From: a virus
Length of the DNA: 49,028 nucleotides
Reading direction: 5' to 3' (one strand)
IMG/VR virus record: IMGVR_UViG_3300021364_000034
Span: 1-49,028 of that record
In this document: in pieces, positions 29,678-38,306 of the stretch
Position numbering within the stretch: the first letter of the stretch is position 1
How the letters are laid out: each line of letters begins with the position of its first letter
The notes under the pieces: model-generated
What the model was told of the DNA's origin: nothing
Database searches by the model: none
The model's input: the letters and a program-made list of their open reading frames with translations, nothing else
Program-made: the position numbers and the translations under genes

Positions 29678-29685
29678 TATTTATT
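29678..29685 (-). promoter_or_regulatory. Late promoter candidate (AATAAATA)
   Basis: AATAAATA on the minus strand ends 21 bases before the ATG at 29656, across the stop codon of the upstream gene. It leaves only a short leader containing AGGAT. Confidence 0.45.
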
Positions 29686-31705
29686 AGAAGAACCTGTTGT
29701 TCTTATTATACTTTGAAAGGAATGACTTTCCATAAGATGAGGACACTTTTCTAACTGTCTCATATTCCTCCTTGAAGACCTTACCAGCCTTCTTATCTTT
29801 TAAGATATCTTCGTCAATCAAACCAAGTTCAATGAGTTTCCTATTGACTGCCTTTGGTTCTCTTTCTTGATTGCCTGAAGCAATGGCCTCTGCCCAGCCA
29901 TCCATATATCTCTGTCTATCTTCTGGTTTTGCATTAGCCATTGACTGTAAGAAACCACGATAAACATTTTCTTGAAGTGCTACTGTTCTTCTTCCAGATT
30001 TATCAGTAATACCTCTACTTAATCCAGTGGCCTTAAGTAATGTTTTACCAAGTTTTGATTTCATACCTGCTGCCTTCTTTTTATCCTTTTCATCAGTTGC
30101 AACTTTTCTGAACTCATTTCTTAGATCAGTATATCTATTATCATCTGCACCAAAATGTTCCTGTAAGATTTCTCTTGTTACACCATTACTAAGACCCTTA
30201 CCACCTTCACCTAGAAGTGTCTTTACTAATTCATCACCAACAGTTCCAATCTGATTCTGTTTCTCAAATAATTTTTCAATACCACCAAAATCTTCTTCTG
30301 ATTTATCTTTATTTGGATCAACTTCCCTCGCGAAGAAATCCTTCATTGATAAATCTACTTTCTTCTGATTTATATTTGAATTAATTAGTGTAAAGTTATC
30401 ATCATTTTCTCTCTGTTCCCATTCCTCTTTACCAGGTTTACCACCATCCTTATTATTAAAACCTCTCACATGTTCTAAATCCATTGCTTGAATATCAAGA
30501 GGAAGACCAGTATATGCATCACGTCCACCTTGTTCAAGATAGATTCTCCACATCAATTTTGCTCTATCTTTATTATTTGCAGGTCCTCTTCTTATGGTAC
30601 CATCATCATTTTTTCCAAGATAATGAATGTCCTTATGTGCCTTATCATCAGAAACATACTTATCATTTGTGACTTGACCTTTACCACTTAAAGATTTTTT
30701 AAATGCATCAGGAAGAATATCAAATGAGGCATCTACAAATTCATCAGATACTTCATTTGATCTCACAGAATCCACAAACTTTTTAATTTGTTCTGGAGAT
30801 CCATCCCCATATCCTTCTAATAATCTATCACGATTTGCCATGAGATTCTGGACATCAGCATACCCAAGATTATTTTTACCCGCACCAGAATTGACTCTTC
30901 CTTCAAATGTCTTTGCATGAGCCATTGCTTGAATAAAAGACTTCTTGTTCGTAGAACTCGGAATAGTTTTTAAACTCTCAGTGAATTTAGCAAACTTCTT
31001 CTCCATGATTTTTCTCTGACGATCAGCCATAGCTCTCATCATAGTTTCTGATTCATTCGCAAACTTCTCATACTCTGCATCAAATGCCTCATCATCATTT
31101 GTGTAGTCAATTTCATCCTCTATTTCAGCAACAGAGTCATCAAGAGTCTTAAATTCTGATTCATCTTTAGGTTCCTCTTCACCTCTAATATCAGAGAGTA
31201 AATCATCAAGACCCTCTACTTCTTGAGCAGCAGCTTCTGCTTCTGCCTCAGCCTTATCCTTTGCAATCATATCATCTGCTTGTTGAGAAACCTGCTTCTT
31301 ACGTGCCGGACTCATAACTGACCCTCGACCACGAGAGAGTTGTTTTACTACATCCTTCTTATCACCAGAACTTAATGCAGTTTCAGTAGGACCACCAGGA
31401 ACAACCCTACCCATCTGATTTGATACGGGTGGTTCTTCTAATCCTACAGGTTCTTCTTGTGAAGGAACTTCTTGTTTAAATTTTGAAAGAGTCTTTGGTT
31501 CTTGAGACTTAGGCTCTATATCTTGTTTCGTAGGTTCTTCGATCTCTATGAAACGAGTACCATCTGTTCTATATCTTTTACCTGTTTTTGGATCACCCCA
31601 TACACCTCTGGCTCGGTATTCATACCCAAGTTCAGCTGCCCTTTCGGAAGTAGTGGACTCCAGAAGATTTCTAGAGTCCTTCAGAAATTTAAATACGTCT
31701 CTCAT
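29684..31705 (-). CDS. Large candidate internal protein with HNH nuclease domain
   Basis: The 673-residue product starts MRDVFKFLKDSRNLLESTTS. Residues about 17-60 are the module shared with the nucleotidyltransferase protein (SERAAELG...GVWGDPKTGK). A long acidic low-complexity linker follows to about residue 230. Near residues 390-450 is an HNH-like domain: DAYTGLPLDIQAMDLEHVRG, with the catalytic His, then NDDNFTLINSNINQKKVD. The Cys pairs of zinc HNH nucleases are absent. Size, linker and shared N-terminus suggest packaging in the capsid and action on host DNA after ejection. Confidence 0.78.
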   Translation of the reverse strand: MRDVFKFLKDSRNLLESTTSERAAELGYEYRARGVWGDPKTGKRYRTDGTRFIEIEEPTKQDIEPKSQEPKTLSKFKQEVPSQEEPVGLEEPPVSNQMGRVVPGGPTETALSSGDKKDVVKQLSRGRGSVMSPARKKQVSQQADDMIAKDKAEAEAEAAAQEVEGLDDLLSDIRGEEEPKDESEFKTLDDSVAEIEDEIDYTNDDEAFDAEYEKFANESETMMRAMADRQRKIMEKKFAKFTESLKTIPSSTNKKSFIQAMAHAKTFEGRVNSGAGKNNLGYADVQNLMANRDRLLEGYGDGSPEQIKKFVDSVRSNEVSDEFVDASFDILPDAFKKSLSGKGQVTNDKYVSDDKAHKDIHYLGKNDDGTIRRGPANNKDRAKLMWRIYLEQGGRDAYTGLPLDIQAMDLEHVRGFNNKDGGKPGKEEWEQRENDDNFTLINSNINQKKVDLSMKDFFAREVDPNKDKSEEDFGGIEKLFEKQNQIGTVGDELVKTLLGEGGKGLSNGVTREILQEHFGADDNRYTDLRNEFRKVATDEKDKKKAAGMKSKLGKTLLKATGLSRGITDKSGRRTVALQENVYRGFLQSMANAKPEDRQRYMDGWAEAIASGNQEREPKAVNRKLIELGLIDEDILKDKKAGKVFKEEYETVRKVSSSYGKSFLSKYNKNNRFF

Positions 31706-32723: not shown

Positions 32724-32933
32724 CTATTTTACCTTATTTTTATTTATATCCTCTAACTGTTTCCTTTCGTTTTCATATATTGAGGATGGATTGTTATAGA
32801 TTTCTAATCCCTCTTTAATACCTGGTATCAACCATTGGTCAATTCTATAACAATATTTCCAATTCACAGGTTGAATACAATTTAATACAACTACTGTCCA
32901 GAATGCTGTCAAGTAATTAATTATCGTGTACAT
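32724..32933 (-). CDS. 69-aa protein with N-terminal hydrophobic helix
   Basis: The product begins MYTIINYLTAFWTVVVLNCI, a probable membrane segment, followed by WKYCYRIDQWLIPG and a charged end. It starts 17 bases inside the end of the O-fucosyltransferase-like gene and is likely translated with it. The late promoter at 32741 lies inside this gene. No function is recognised. Confidence 0.6.
   Translation of the reverse strand: MYTIINYLTAFWTVVVLNCIQPVNWKYCYRIDQWLIPGIKEGLEIYNNPSSIYENERKQLEDINKNKVK
32741..32748 (-). promoter_or_regulatory. T4-type late promoter of the Ala/Lys-rich head protein
   Basis: The minus strand reads TATAAATA ending 27 bases before the ATG at 32713. The spacing to the start codon is like that of the other late promoters here. 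Confidence 0.75.
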
Positions 32934-34083
32934 CAGTTACTAATTTTCCGTTAATTTCTTTCATCCATTGATAGTGTGAAGATTGGTTCCAGTGCCAATA
33001 ATTGTCCTCCGCAGTTGACCAAGGAATGGTACTGGTGATATCTTCATTTGGACTTTCAGGCATGTGATTTATTCCAAACCAATCATCTGCCTGTCTTCCA
33101 TCAAGACCTCTCATAATGTTTATTCTTTTAGTAAATGTTGAGAGATATGTTCCAAAAAAGTTTTCAGACATAGAGCAAATAACTTGATCCATAACAGCAA
33201 TATTCAATTTATCTGATTCATTAAAATCTTCCTTGAGGTTATATTTAAAATCTTCATAAAAGTATATATCATATTTTTCTCCAAGTTTTTCAAAGAAGGT
33301 TCTATCCTTCTCATCAGTTGCAATATATAAAGGCAATTCTGGTTCTGAAAAAGGGCAATCATCAATGACCTTTAAAAGTTTTTCTGGTTCATTATACACT
33401 TCAATATCTTCAGATCTTGTATATAAAAAATCGTTCCTACGAACATGGACCGCATTATATGGACCAATTTTAGATCTTACAACCTCACAATATTCATAAT
33501 ACTTAGGATGATATTTAAATACTCTATTAATTTTATCCTTCAAATCATTTCTTCCTTTTTCTCCACCAGGATAAACATGATACCAATAATGCCCAAATAA
33601 ATTATTTTCAAAATGTAAAAATTGATTACTACAACTTAAATCAACAATATCTCGATTGTTTCTAAATTTTTTAAAATCCTCAGTTTCTGGAATATCTTTT
33701 ACTAGAATACTATGAGCGTCACATATATTATTCTTGTTAAAGGTAATTTTTCTAGTGTCTAATTCTAGGTTTTCCAATTTACCTGTGTATGATCTTTCAG
33801 ATTGTATAATATCTAATTTGTCACGAAACTCTGGAACATTTCTATACTCAATACAATCAAACTCTTTTAATAAAATATTCTTATCAAAAATTTCCCAAAT
33901 GTTTCTCCAGTCTTTTTTCTTTTGAGATTCACAAATATGAATCATCCAACAGTCTGGTGGAAGAATTACTTTTCTTCCAGTAATCTCTGCAATAGATAAA
34001 AAGGTTTCATATGACATAATAACATTTACAAGTCCAGAAAAATATGGACTAAATGAAATATATTTCGTTTTGTCGTCTGCCAT
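32917..34083 (-). CDS. O-fucosyltransferase-like (GT65/68-type) protein
   Basis: The 388-residue product has an N-terminal half with SGLVNVIMSYETFLSIAEIT and RKVILPPDCW. The donor-binding segment is NAVHVRRNDFLYTR (HxRRxD type), followed by LPLYIATDEKDRTFFEKL and a C-terminal MDQVICSMSENFFGTYLSTF. This order matches the GDP-fucose protein O-fucosyltransferase superfamily, including the TDE and S-x-F acceptor region. It lies outside the glycan operon, just upstream of candidate head proteins, so it may modify a protein. Donor and acceptor are unknown. Confidence 0.75.
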   Translation of the reverse strand: MADDKTKYISFSPYFSGLVNVIMSYETFLSIAEITGRKVILPPDCWMIHICESQKKKDWRNIWEIFDKNILLKEFDCIEYRNVPEFRDKLDIIQSERSYTGKLENLELDTRKITFNKNNICDAHSILVKDIPETEDFKKFRNNRDIVDLSCSNQFLHFENNLFGHYWYHVYPGGEKGRNDLKDKINRVFKYHPKYYEYCEVVRSKIGPYNAVHVRRNDFLYTRSEDIEVYNEPEKLLKVIDDCPFSEPELPLYIATDEKDRTFFEKLGEKYDIYFYEDFKYNLKEDFNESDKLNIAVMDQVICSMSENFFGTYLSTFTKRINIMRGLDGRQADDWFGINHMPESPNEDITSTIPWSTAEDNYWHWNQSSHYQWMKEINGKLVTDVHDN

Positions 34084-35467: not shown

Positions 35468-35672
35468 CTTTAGGATTATCTTTTTTATTAAATCCAAATG
35501 GTCCATCTTTTTCTTCAAGGGCAAGTTTCAATGCAACTCCACCAACAGCTTCCATGACCTTAAGAATATCTTCTGTCTTTGCATCTTCTCCAAGTTCTTT
35601 TGCAACATACCAATACTTAGGCCAGAATGTTTCACCGGCCTTTTGATAATCTTCAAGTGTGAGTAGTTTCAT
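35463..35672 (-). CDS. 69-aa protein next to the DNA methyltransferase, unknown function
   Basis: The product begins MKLLTLEDYQKAGETFWPKY and includes WYVAKELGEDAKTEDILKVM and VGGVALKLALEEKDGP. It is helical and soluble. It starts 4 bases inside the end of the C5-methyltransferase gene (ATGA), so it is co-translated with it. I recall homologues in many cyanomyoviruses, including some without the methyltransferase, so a link to DNA modification is uncertain. Confidence 0.65.
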   Translation of the reverse strand: MKLLTLEDYQKAGETFWPKYWYVAKELGEDAKTEDILKVMEAVGGVALKLALEEKDGPFGFNKKDNPKE

Positions 35673-36787
35673 AGTTTTGATAATACTTGTTTGTAAATAC
35701 TTTCTGCAATTGCTTTCATCATAAGTGGTGGAACCATTCTACCAATTCTTTCTGTTTGTTGTGAATGTGAACCAGTCAGAATGAAGTCATCAGGAAGTGA
35801 TTGAATACGTTTGAGTTCTGGAACTGTCAGAACCCTATCCTCATTCCAGTGTATCAGACCTCCACTGGCTGTCAAGGTAGGAGATGGTTTATAAAAAGAT
35901 GCCCTCTTGGTATTGAAACAATGTCCCTTCTCGTGGTAGTCCATACCACTCAAAACTTTAGTTGGATTCTTTGGCATCTTCTGAATCACCTTCTGATAGA
36001 TACCACTATTCAACATATGTTCTGTGAGAGTTTTTACATTCTCAGGATCATTTTCCACGCCACCAATAATATCACCAATAGTTGTTTCTTTTGATGACCT
36101 ATCAGGAAACAATGAGGATACAGTCAAGACATTGAGACCTAGTTTATCTGCAATGTCTTGACGAACTGCAATAAAGATAAGTCTTTCTCTTCCTTGACCA
36201 ATACCAAAATATGATGCCTTCATTACTCGTGATGTAATGAGATAACCAATTTTCTCAAATGCATTAGTTATCATTGCATAATACTTCTTTGCCTCCCCAA
36301 CTGTCAAACCCTTGACATTCTCACCAACAATAATCTTTGGTTGAATACCTTTGGCAACACGAATAAATTCAAAGAATAAATCTTCGATGTTCTCAACCTT
36401 CTTACCATCAGAATAGTTTTTGGTCTTACCCCATCCATCAGAGTGTTTAGCACCTTCTCCACGACACATAGACCCTGCCACAGAAAATGCAGAACAAGGT
36501 GGTGAACCATCAAGTATATCGAGTTCACGAGGTTTTAATCCAGTGATCTTAAGAAAGTCTCCACCAACTAATTTTTTAATATCGTCAGGAACAATATGCG
36601 TGGATGGGTAGTTTGATGAATATGTATTTCTTGCTTCTTCTACAAATTCATTGATACAAAGAATTTTTCCACCAGCAAGACGATAACCGGTAGAAGATCC
36701 ACCCCCACCGGCGAAAGTAGAAATAACGGTGAACTTTTCTTGAGCCTCACCGTCATAGACATCTTGTAATTTATATGGAAGTTTCAT
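35669..36787 (-). CDS. DNA cytosine-C5 methyltransferase with altered motif X (IGR), possible carboxymethyltransferase
   Basis: The 372-residue product has all core C5-MTase motifs. Motif I is STFAGGGGSS (residues 23-32), motif IV is GSPPCSAFS (P96-P97-C98, catalytic Cys98), motif VI is GENVKG (156-158) and motif VIII is GQGRER (197-202). The region between 220 and 300 recognises the target, and PTLTASGG (303-310) follows. Motif X normally reads GNxVPP; here it is ERIGRMVPP, so Arg350 replaces the conserved Asn near the SAM methyl group. In an engineered C5-MTase a basic residue at this Asn allows carboxy-SAM to be used and makes 5-carboxymethylcytosine. The gene follows an asparagine-synthetase-like gene (4-base overlap) and a CmoA-like gene. 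Confidence 0.93.
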   Translation of the reverse strand: MKLPYKLQDVYDGEAQEKFTVISTFAGGGGSSTGYRLAGGKILCINEFVEEARNTYSSNYPSTHIVPDDIKKLVGGDFLKITGLKPRELDILDGSPPCSAFSVAGSMCRGEGAKHSDGWGKTKNYSDGKKVENIEDLFFEFIRVAKGIQPKIIVGENVKGLTVGEAKKYYAMITNAFEKIGYLITSRVMKASYFGIGQGRERLIFIAVRQDIADKLGLNVLTVSSLFPDRSSKETTIGDIIGGVENDPENVKTLTEHMLNSGIYQKVIQKMPKNPTKVLSGMDYHEKGHCFNTKRASFYKPSPTLTASGGLIHWNEDRVLTVPELKRIQSLPDDFILTGSHSQQTERIGRMVPPLMMKAIAESIYKQVLSKL

Positions 36788-37599
36788 AAGGGTAATATCG
36801 ATTGTCCAGTAGATGCATAATCAGAAGCCAAGTCCATAACTCTCTTCCTCTTACGATTATTTAGCATTTTATCTTTTAGTAGATTTTCAAATAGATGATC
36901 AATATTAGATCCCAATTGAAGATTGATATGATCTTTCACGTTGGAAACTCTTGCAAATTCTTCTTCAAATGCGTCTCTCACTTTTTGTTTTTGTTTAGGC
37001 TGATTTAATTCAAACCAATTATACCTAAAAAAGTATTCTTTTACAATATCGTGATAGATGTATGGGTGGACAAGTTTTATATTTCTTTCATTTGACAACT
37101 GTTCAATCTGACGAAATCCAGTCACATTATGTGGCATGAAATAATTACGTCTGAATTGATCGAACTTTTCTTTTGGTTCTTTAAAGTGAAGAATTGCTTT
37201 CTTACTCACACCATAGTACCCATCAGCACCAATACCACTTAGAAGATATAACTCTTTGATTTGGGGAAAGACATAGAGAAATGGAAAAGTACATTCGAAG
37301 TGAGTCTTTTTCCGACAATCATAATCTCTTACAAGTTGAAGAAAATCATCTCTCAAATTTTTAGTAGGAACTACAACAGTATTACATTCCCAACCAAATT
37401 CTTTACTAACCTCTTCAGCTTTACATGCATCATAAGACTTATCACCCTCAAGATGAAAAGTATATGCTGTAATTTTTTTACCTAGACGATGAGCAGCAAA
37501 ACCCAGACTCAAACTATCTACACCACCAGACAACAAAATCCCCACATCATCTGTGGGGACTTCTTTCCTTATAATATTTACCAGAATTTTATCTATCAT
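36784..37599 (-). CDS. Asparagine-synthetase-like PP-loop amidotransferase, no glutaminase domain
   Basis: The 271-residue product has the PP-loop LLSGGVDSLSLGF (SGGVDS at 24-29) near the N-terminus. It has LSGIGADGYYG (120-130), which matches the LSGxGxDExFGGY motif of asparagine synthetase with Glu changed to Gly. These domains adenylate a carboxylate and replace AMP by ammonia. The N-terminal glutaminase domain of AsnB is absent, so ammonia must come from elsewhere. It lies between a CmoA-like gene and a C5-methyltransferase, overlapping the latter by 4 bases. Amidation of a carboxylate on modified DNA is an attractive guess; QueC-like or tRNA-modifying roles are alternatives. Confidence 0.82.
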   Translation of the reverse strand: MIDKILVNIIRKEVPTDDVGILLSGGVDSLSLGFAAHRLGKKITAYTFHLEGDKSYDACKAEEVSKEFGWECNTVVVPTKNLRDDFLQLVRDYDCRKKTHFECTFPFLYVFPQIKELYLLSGIGADGYYGVSKKAILHFKEPKEKFDQFRRNYFMPHNVTGFRQIEQLSNERNIKLVHPYIYHDIVKEYFFRYNWFELNQPKQKQKVRDAFEEEFARVSNVKDHINLQLGSNIDHLFENLLKDKMLNNRKRKRVMDLASDYASTGQSILPL

Positions 37600-37610
37600 A
37601 AGATTTCAAC

Positions 37611-38306
37611 TCATTTAATAGCAATGACTCCAACGAACTGATGGTTTCTCCAGAAGATCTGACAATCTTTGAAACCAGCTGACATAATCATACCATAAAG
37701 TTCCTTCCATGTGTTGGGTTTCAACATATCACGAAGTTGTTGTTCTTTATCCATGATCTCATCAGCAGAAAAAGTTTTTCTCTTGTAATCATAATGATTA
37801 AATGTAAGAAGTTCTTGAAAGAATGCATTCTCACACATCAACTTCTCTGCAAAGATAAAAGCACCACCTTCATTCAAACCATTGTAGATCTTATCAATAG
37901 TATTTTGACGAGTGGTCTTTGGCATAAACTGAAGAGTGAATAATGATGTCACCAAAGAACAATTCCTGAACTCATAGTTAGTGACATCACCACGTACCCA
38001 CTCAAGAAGGGCCCAGGGATAGTCTTTACGAATCTCAGTATATCTTGAGTCGAGATCATCATAAAAACTACCTGCGAGTTCTACACCCACATAGTGAGCC
38101 TGTTTACGATTGATATTGTTACCAAGAATCATCTTAGTCAACTTTCCAGTTGAACACCCAACATCAACAACTTTAGTATTATCTTCAACAAAGTATCGAG
38201 AGAAAGATACAGTGTCTTCTAGAAGATTTGAATAACCACGAATAGAACTGTCAATGTGATTGTCAAAACCTTCAGGTGAGTGTGCGAATGAAAAGTCGTA
38301 AGTCAT
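37611..38306 (-). CDS. CmoA-like SAM enzyme (carboxy-SAM synthase family)
   Basis: The 231-residue product follows E. coli CmoA along its length: HIDSSIRGYSNLLE (CmoA RSVPGYSN), VVDVGCSTGKLT (DLGCSLGAAT), LFTLQFMPKTTRQNTIDKIY ([20 protein letters not shown]), GLNEGGAFIFAEKL and NHYDYKRKTFSADEI. CmoA makes carboxy-SAM from SAM and prephenate; CmoB then uses it to form cmo5U34 in tRNA. In my alignment by eye E. coli Arg199, which holds the carboxylate, corresponds to Glu188, and the nearest Arg is Arg192, one helical turn on. So activity must be tested; a plain methyltransferase is possible. It heads a chain with the amidotransferase and the C5-MTase. Confidence 0.82.
   Translation of the reverse strand: MTYDFSFAHSPEGFDNHIDSSIRGYSNLLEDTVSFSRYFVEDNTKVVDVGCSTGKLTKMILGNNINRKQAHYVGVELAGSFYDDLDSRYTEIRKDYPWALLEWVRGDVTNYEFRNCSLVTSLFTLQFMPKTTRQNTIDKIYNGLNEGGAFIFAEKLMCENAFFQELLTFNHYDYKRKTFSADEIMDKEQQLRDMLKPNTWKELYGMIMSAGFKDCQIFWRNHQFVGVIAIK

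Follow-up and report, generated by a model that had tools for sequence, protein, structure and literature searches.

Why does a phage DNA cytosine C5-methyltransferase carry an arginine at the motif X position normally held by asparagine, and does this residue point to a cofactor other than SAM? The question is raised by a gene on an uncultured virus contig of 49,028 bases (IMG/VR record IMGVR_UViG_3300021364_000034, analyzed over its full length and referred to as the window), the nearest relatives of which include the Synechococcus phages RB11-B, RN05-S, S-B05 and S-B43. Our reading, which we consider highly probable, is that the gene encodes a CmoX ortholog within a CmoA/CmoX/CmoY pathway, with Arg350 giving specificity for carboxy-SAM (Cx-SAM) and 5gcxmC, the glycine amide of 5-carboxymethylcytosine (5cxmC), as end product. 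The features of the locus are listed below, with the S-B43 proteins (SpCmoX, SpCmoY and SpCmoA) as reference.

35669..36787 (-): cmoX, predicted DNA cytosine C5-carboxymethyltransferase, 372 aa (Pfam DNA_methylase, E 2.7e-51; 325/372 identical to SpCmoX, PDB 8YF3)
35738..35740 (-): AGA codon of Arg350, replacing the motif X Asn (alignment; residue and number match the Cx-SAM-binding Arg350 of SpCmoX)
35840..35953 (-): residues 279-316, piece of the target-recognition region (identical to SpCmoX)
36494..36496 (-): codon of Cys98, catalytic, motif IV SPPC (alignment; nucleophile in SpCmoX)
36784..37599 (-): cmoY, predicted ATP-dependent amide ligase, 271 aa, without glutaminase domain (Pfam Asn_synthase, E 6.9e-13; 221/271 identical to SpCmoY)
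37611..38306 (-): cmoA, predicted carboxy-SAM synthase, 231 aa (TIGR00740, E 3.3e-35, under the curated cut-off; 201/231 identical to SpCmoA)

The initial annotation had read motif X as ERIGRMVPP with AGA in place of the asparagine codon, and both the residue and its coordinates proved right; in the alignment the arginine sits in the Asn column and no other Asn is found there. The remaining catalytic motifs of CmoX are intact, as had been claimed (FAGGGGS, INEF, D69, GSPPC98, ENV156-158 and QxRxR198-202), and the window protein has the C5-methyltransferase fold and SPPC catalytic motif of a CmoX together with an arginine at the position of HhaI Asn304. Arg350 is kept in 80/80 of the closest IMG/VR relatives and in S-B43, RN05-S and S-CRM01, and its codon varies among 82 full-length matches (AGA 62, CGT 10, CGA 6, AGG 4). 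The dN/dS of cmoX relative to S-B43 is ~0.05 (0.072/1.46). Judged from these sequences, Arg350 is neither chance nor decay, being invariant in relatives through four codons at a low dN/dS.

When solved structures were searched with the window CmoX, 8YF3 matched over 372/372 residues (E 1.7e-226), and it also ranks first among the structural matches to the predicted model (pLDDT 86.7). According to PMC12783734 (Yang et al., Nat Commun 2025; December 2025), 8YF3 is the crystal structure with Cx-SAM of S-B43 CmoX, a DNA cytosine C5-carboxymethyltransferase in which Arg350 stands for HhaI Asn304 and touches the carboxymethyl group of Cx-SAM. What the initial annotation hoped to learn from docking carboxy-SAM is thereby already answered for the ortholog. 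Wild-type SpCmoX is reported there to use Cx-SAM only, and the R350N mutant to be inactive, accepting neither SAM nor Cx-SAM. The Cx-SAM contacts named in that paper (F25, E47, F48, D69, C98 and R350) are all conserved in the window CmoX. Carboxy-SAM use, which the initial annotation had deduced from the basic residue, is therefore well supported, having been reported for the 87%-identical SpCmoX, while its proposal to compare cofactor preference after mutating Arg350 to Asn needs correction: since SpCmoX R350N takes neither cofactor, the same mutant of the window enzyme is expected to be dead rather than a methyltransferase. Residues 279-316 show no difference from SpCmoX, so the same GC target is predicted. 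The kind of enzyme, Arg350 and the mechanism are already known from the published account of this close ortholog, and this contig may well be among those covered by the IMG/VR survey described in PMC12783734.

The cmoX gene is linked to a putative Cx-SAM synthase gene, with cmoA (a neighbor left unmentioned in the initial annotation) two genes upstream on the same strand, and cmoY and cmoX overlap by 4 nt; the order cmoA-cmoY-cmoX is the same in S-B43. CmoY, which adjoins cmoX, is of the Asn-synthetase type of ATP-dependent ligase without the glutaminase domain, and its model, of moderate quality (pLDDT 75), resembles asparagine and beta-lactam synthetases in structure comparison. The nearest solved relatives of CmoA are 4gek and 4iwn, annotated as tRNA (cmo5U34)-methyltransferase. 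The window CmoA scores under the curated equivalog cut-offs (121.9 vs 193.3 bits for TIGR00740, 104.8 vs 285 for NF011995), as do all 7 phage CmoA matches examined, so the bacterial cut-off is no fair test for phage CmoA; the 87% identity to the assayed SpCmoA argues for a CmoA more strongly than the model score does. Elsewhere in the window, an ORF at 32917-34083 (-) matches GDP-fucose protein O-fucosyltransferase (Pfam O-FucT, E 2.8e-15), and a 673-aa ORF at 29684-31705 (-) contains a stretch, DAYTGLPLDIQAMDLEHVRGFNNKD, that looks HNH-like on visual inspection alone.

The locus resembles the CmoX/CmoY/CmoA system of S-B43 in gene order, protein lengths, Arg350, Cys98, the named Cx-SAM contacts and part of the recognition region (identity: CmoX 87%, CmoY 81.5%, CmoA 87%), but lies on a separate uncultured phage contig known from sequence and differs by 47 (CmoX), 50 (CmoY) and 30 (CmoA) substitutions. 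It also parallels the engineered M.MpeI N374K described in PMC12783734, in which replacing the Asn of motif X by a basic residue leads to Cx-SAM use; that enzyme carries Lys and prefers CG, whereas the window CmoX is natural, carries Arg and has GC as predicted target. With M.HhaI and M.HaeIII it shares the C5-methyltransferase fold and catalytic motifs at 21-25% identity in structural alignment; those enzymes have Asn at motif X (Asn304 in M.HhaI) and use SAM, whereas the window enzyme has Arg and would use Cx-SAM.

The survey in PMC12783734 is described as retaining only sequences with Arg350. We gathered phage C5-methyltransferases without an arginine filter and recorded for each the residue at motif X and whether the same stretch also carries a CmoA gene. 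CmoA was present on the stretch for 84 of the 108 Arg-type sequences and for 0/21 of the Asn type. Among the 24 Arg-type sequences lacking it, 22 are closely related to the window gene and have <2.5 kb of sequence upstream, another comes from a contig whose first base falls within the gene, and the last is that of Erwinia phage Yoloswag, with CmoA ~14 kb away. When sequences were clustered at 50% identity, CmoA accompanied 6/6 Arg clusters vs 0/4 Asn clusters (Fisher p = 0.005), counts that are small because each of three viral scans yielded no more than 3 to 9 loci. The alignment of motif X across phage enzymes suggested by the initial annotation thus finds Arg with CmoA and Asn without it, and since relatedness guided the sampling and not all stretches are long, this contrast is support rather than an unbiased survey. 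The Asn-type negative control is new relative to the main text of PMC12783734, from which it is absent.

Motif X residues other than Arg and Asn were also encountered. Leu characterizes the Melnitz type (L086 4010-6194, L097-L176), with CmoA in 0/81 on the stretch searched and a Tet_JBP oxygenase homologue in 64 of the 80 contigs searched; this family probably uses SAM. On account of this Leu-type family, with its Tet_JBP neighbors and no CmoA, we rejected the general rule that a new cofactor is signaled by any departure from Asn at motif X. Gly-type enzymes from Staphylococcus phages and related contigs have CmoA in 6/6. The Staphylococcus phage genes with Gly (L091 5980-7679, L092 5950-8468, L204-L207) adjoin cmoA; a CmoY-like gene sits between cmoA and the methyltransferase in L092, and L206 has an Arg-type copy besides the Gly-type one. 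Gly at this position may be either another way of binding Cx-SAM or a sign of a different role. Alcaligenes phage Afa-NA1 (L093 5917-10461) has a CmoA gene, but no C5-methyltransferase was found in its 78 kb record; a D12-class N6-adenine methyltransferase lies a few kb from the CmoA gene and is a candidate for adenine carboxymethylation, a modification that the authors of PMC12783734 say they did not find.

Two readings would strip Arg350 of functional meaning. A decaying or non-functional gene would explain the loss of a textbook residue (the motif X Asn) from the window methyltransferase, but the frame is full-length, the other motifs are intact, dN/dS is ~0.05 and 98% identical copies exist in other contigs; decay is rejected, with next to no probability left to it. 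The other reading, of a standard 5mC methyltransferase that uses SAM and whose Asn has drifted to Arg without consequence, gains something from the Melnitz-type family, where Leu in 81/81 sequences shows that the Asn is not universal and where CmoA is lacking on the searched stretch. We nevertheless regard it as very improbable, given that SpCmoX, with the same Arg, takes only Cx-SAM (PMC12783734) and that the Arg is invariant among relatives and linked to cmoA.

A less remote, though still unlikely, alternative accepts CmoX as described and places the difference at the last step, with CmoY joining another amine or none, and hence an end product other than the glycine amide. CmoY and SpCmoY differ at 50/271 positions, so the amine could differ; the ligase is swapped or missing in relatives, and other amines are expected in other ligase clusters (PMC12783734). 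Against this, CmoY is 81.5% identical to SpCmoY and lacks the glutaminase domain, and the PPi loop SGGVDS, KKTHFECTFPF and SGIGADGYYGVSKKA are the same in the two enzymes (I136V comes just after SGIGADGYYGVSKKA). A primary amide as product of the window CmoY was considered and dropped, because the glutaminase domain, present in the 465-aa variants that relatives have in this slot, is absent and the protein matches the glycine-using S-B43 enzyme.

For the preferred 5gcxmC pathway, the present analysis contributes the residue, motifs, gene cluster, orthology and co-occurrence, while the enzymatic steps were shown, the structure was solved and 5gcxmC was seen with the 81-87% identical S-B43 proteins. 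PMC12783734 reports that the S-B43 trio yields Cx-SAM, then 5cxmC at GC sites and finally its glycine amide, 5gcxmC, which is also present in S-B43 phage DNA. By analogy, the phage's own CmoA would convert SAM and prephenate to Cx-SAM; Cys98 of CmoX would then attack cytosine C6 and the carboxymethyl group would be transferred to C5, with Arg350 binding the Cx-SAM carboxylate and making the enzyme specific for this cofactor. CmoY would use ATP to activate the resulting 5-carboxymethylcytosine in GC dinucleotides and would couple it to glycine, and 5gcxmC would shield the phage DNA from host restriction. We infer from S-B43 that the window enzymes act in this way, and likewise the GC target, glycine as the amine and restriction protection as the benefit.

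The position between cmoA and cmoX is an exchangeable slot among relatives. It is empty in some; in others it is filled by the 271-aa CmoY, by CmoY together with a ParB-like or a GmrSD_N/HNH-type ORF, by a ligase of 465 aa whose N-terminal part is a glutaminase domain (Pfam GATase_6, GATase_7 and Asn_synthase), or by this glutaminase type and a second CmoX. L052 (1-7094) and L054 share 99.0% identity as far as the cmoA end and 99.0% again from the first base of cmoX onward, yet the slot holds CmoY in L052 and the 465-aa glutaminase-fused ligase in L054 (5065-6462), a precise gene-for-gene swap; L083/L079 and L060/L068 show the same exchange between adjoining flanks of 91-96% identity. These pairs are metagenome contigs, in any single one of which chimeric assembly is possible, but several pairs agree. 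On the CmoX tree the slot must change 9 times altogether; counting what well-supported branches require, each ligase type accounts for no fewer than 5 changes. Exchange of the slot genes is thus evident at the sequence level, and we infer that the final base, and how it is recognized, changes as a result. The complete phages RN05-S (L002 5280-7119) and S-CRM01 (L003 5297-7134) have CmoA and CmoX and no Asn_synthase-family gene in the whole genome; their end product may be free 5-carboxymethylcytosine.

Other variants of the locus were observed. Tandem CmoX genes, both with Arg at motif X, occur in L075 (7531-9773), L076, L077 and L080; the upstream copy shares 72% identity with the window protein but has a different recognition region, which suggests a second target sequence. 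The extra ORFs before cmoY (L057 7846-9192; L062 2589-3920; slot ORFs of L034, L051 and L083) are of two kinds, one weakly matching GmrSD_N and HNH endonucleases and the other ParB-like proteins.

A natural Cx-SAM enzyme acting on DNA, as established in December 2025, gives the base a carboxyl handle and has phages borrowing chemistry from tRNA modification. To this our analysis adds the Asn-type control, the caution from the Leu type that a motif X without its Asn is not in itself a sign of Cx-SAM use, and the exchange of finishing ligases between near-identical phages, which the main text of PMC12783734 does not mention and which is the one fresh lead beyond that work. We narrowly favor the view that cmoA-cmoX forms a fixed carboxymethyl writer on which related cyanophages swap the finishing enzyme (a glycine ligase, a glutaminase-fused predicted primary-amide ligase, or nothing), thereby changing the surface of their DNA and perhaps evading hosts that recognize one decoration. 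What selects for different DNA decorations would thereby become testable in culture, for instance with RN05-S and S-B43, which are both on record from Synechococcus sp. MW02.
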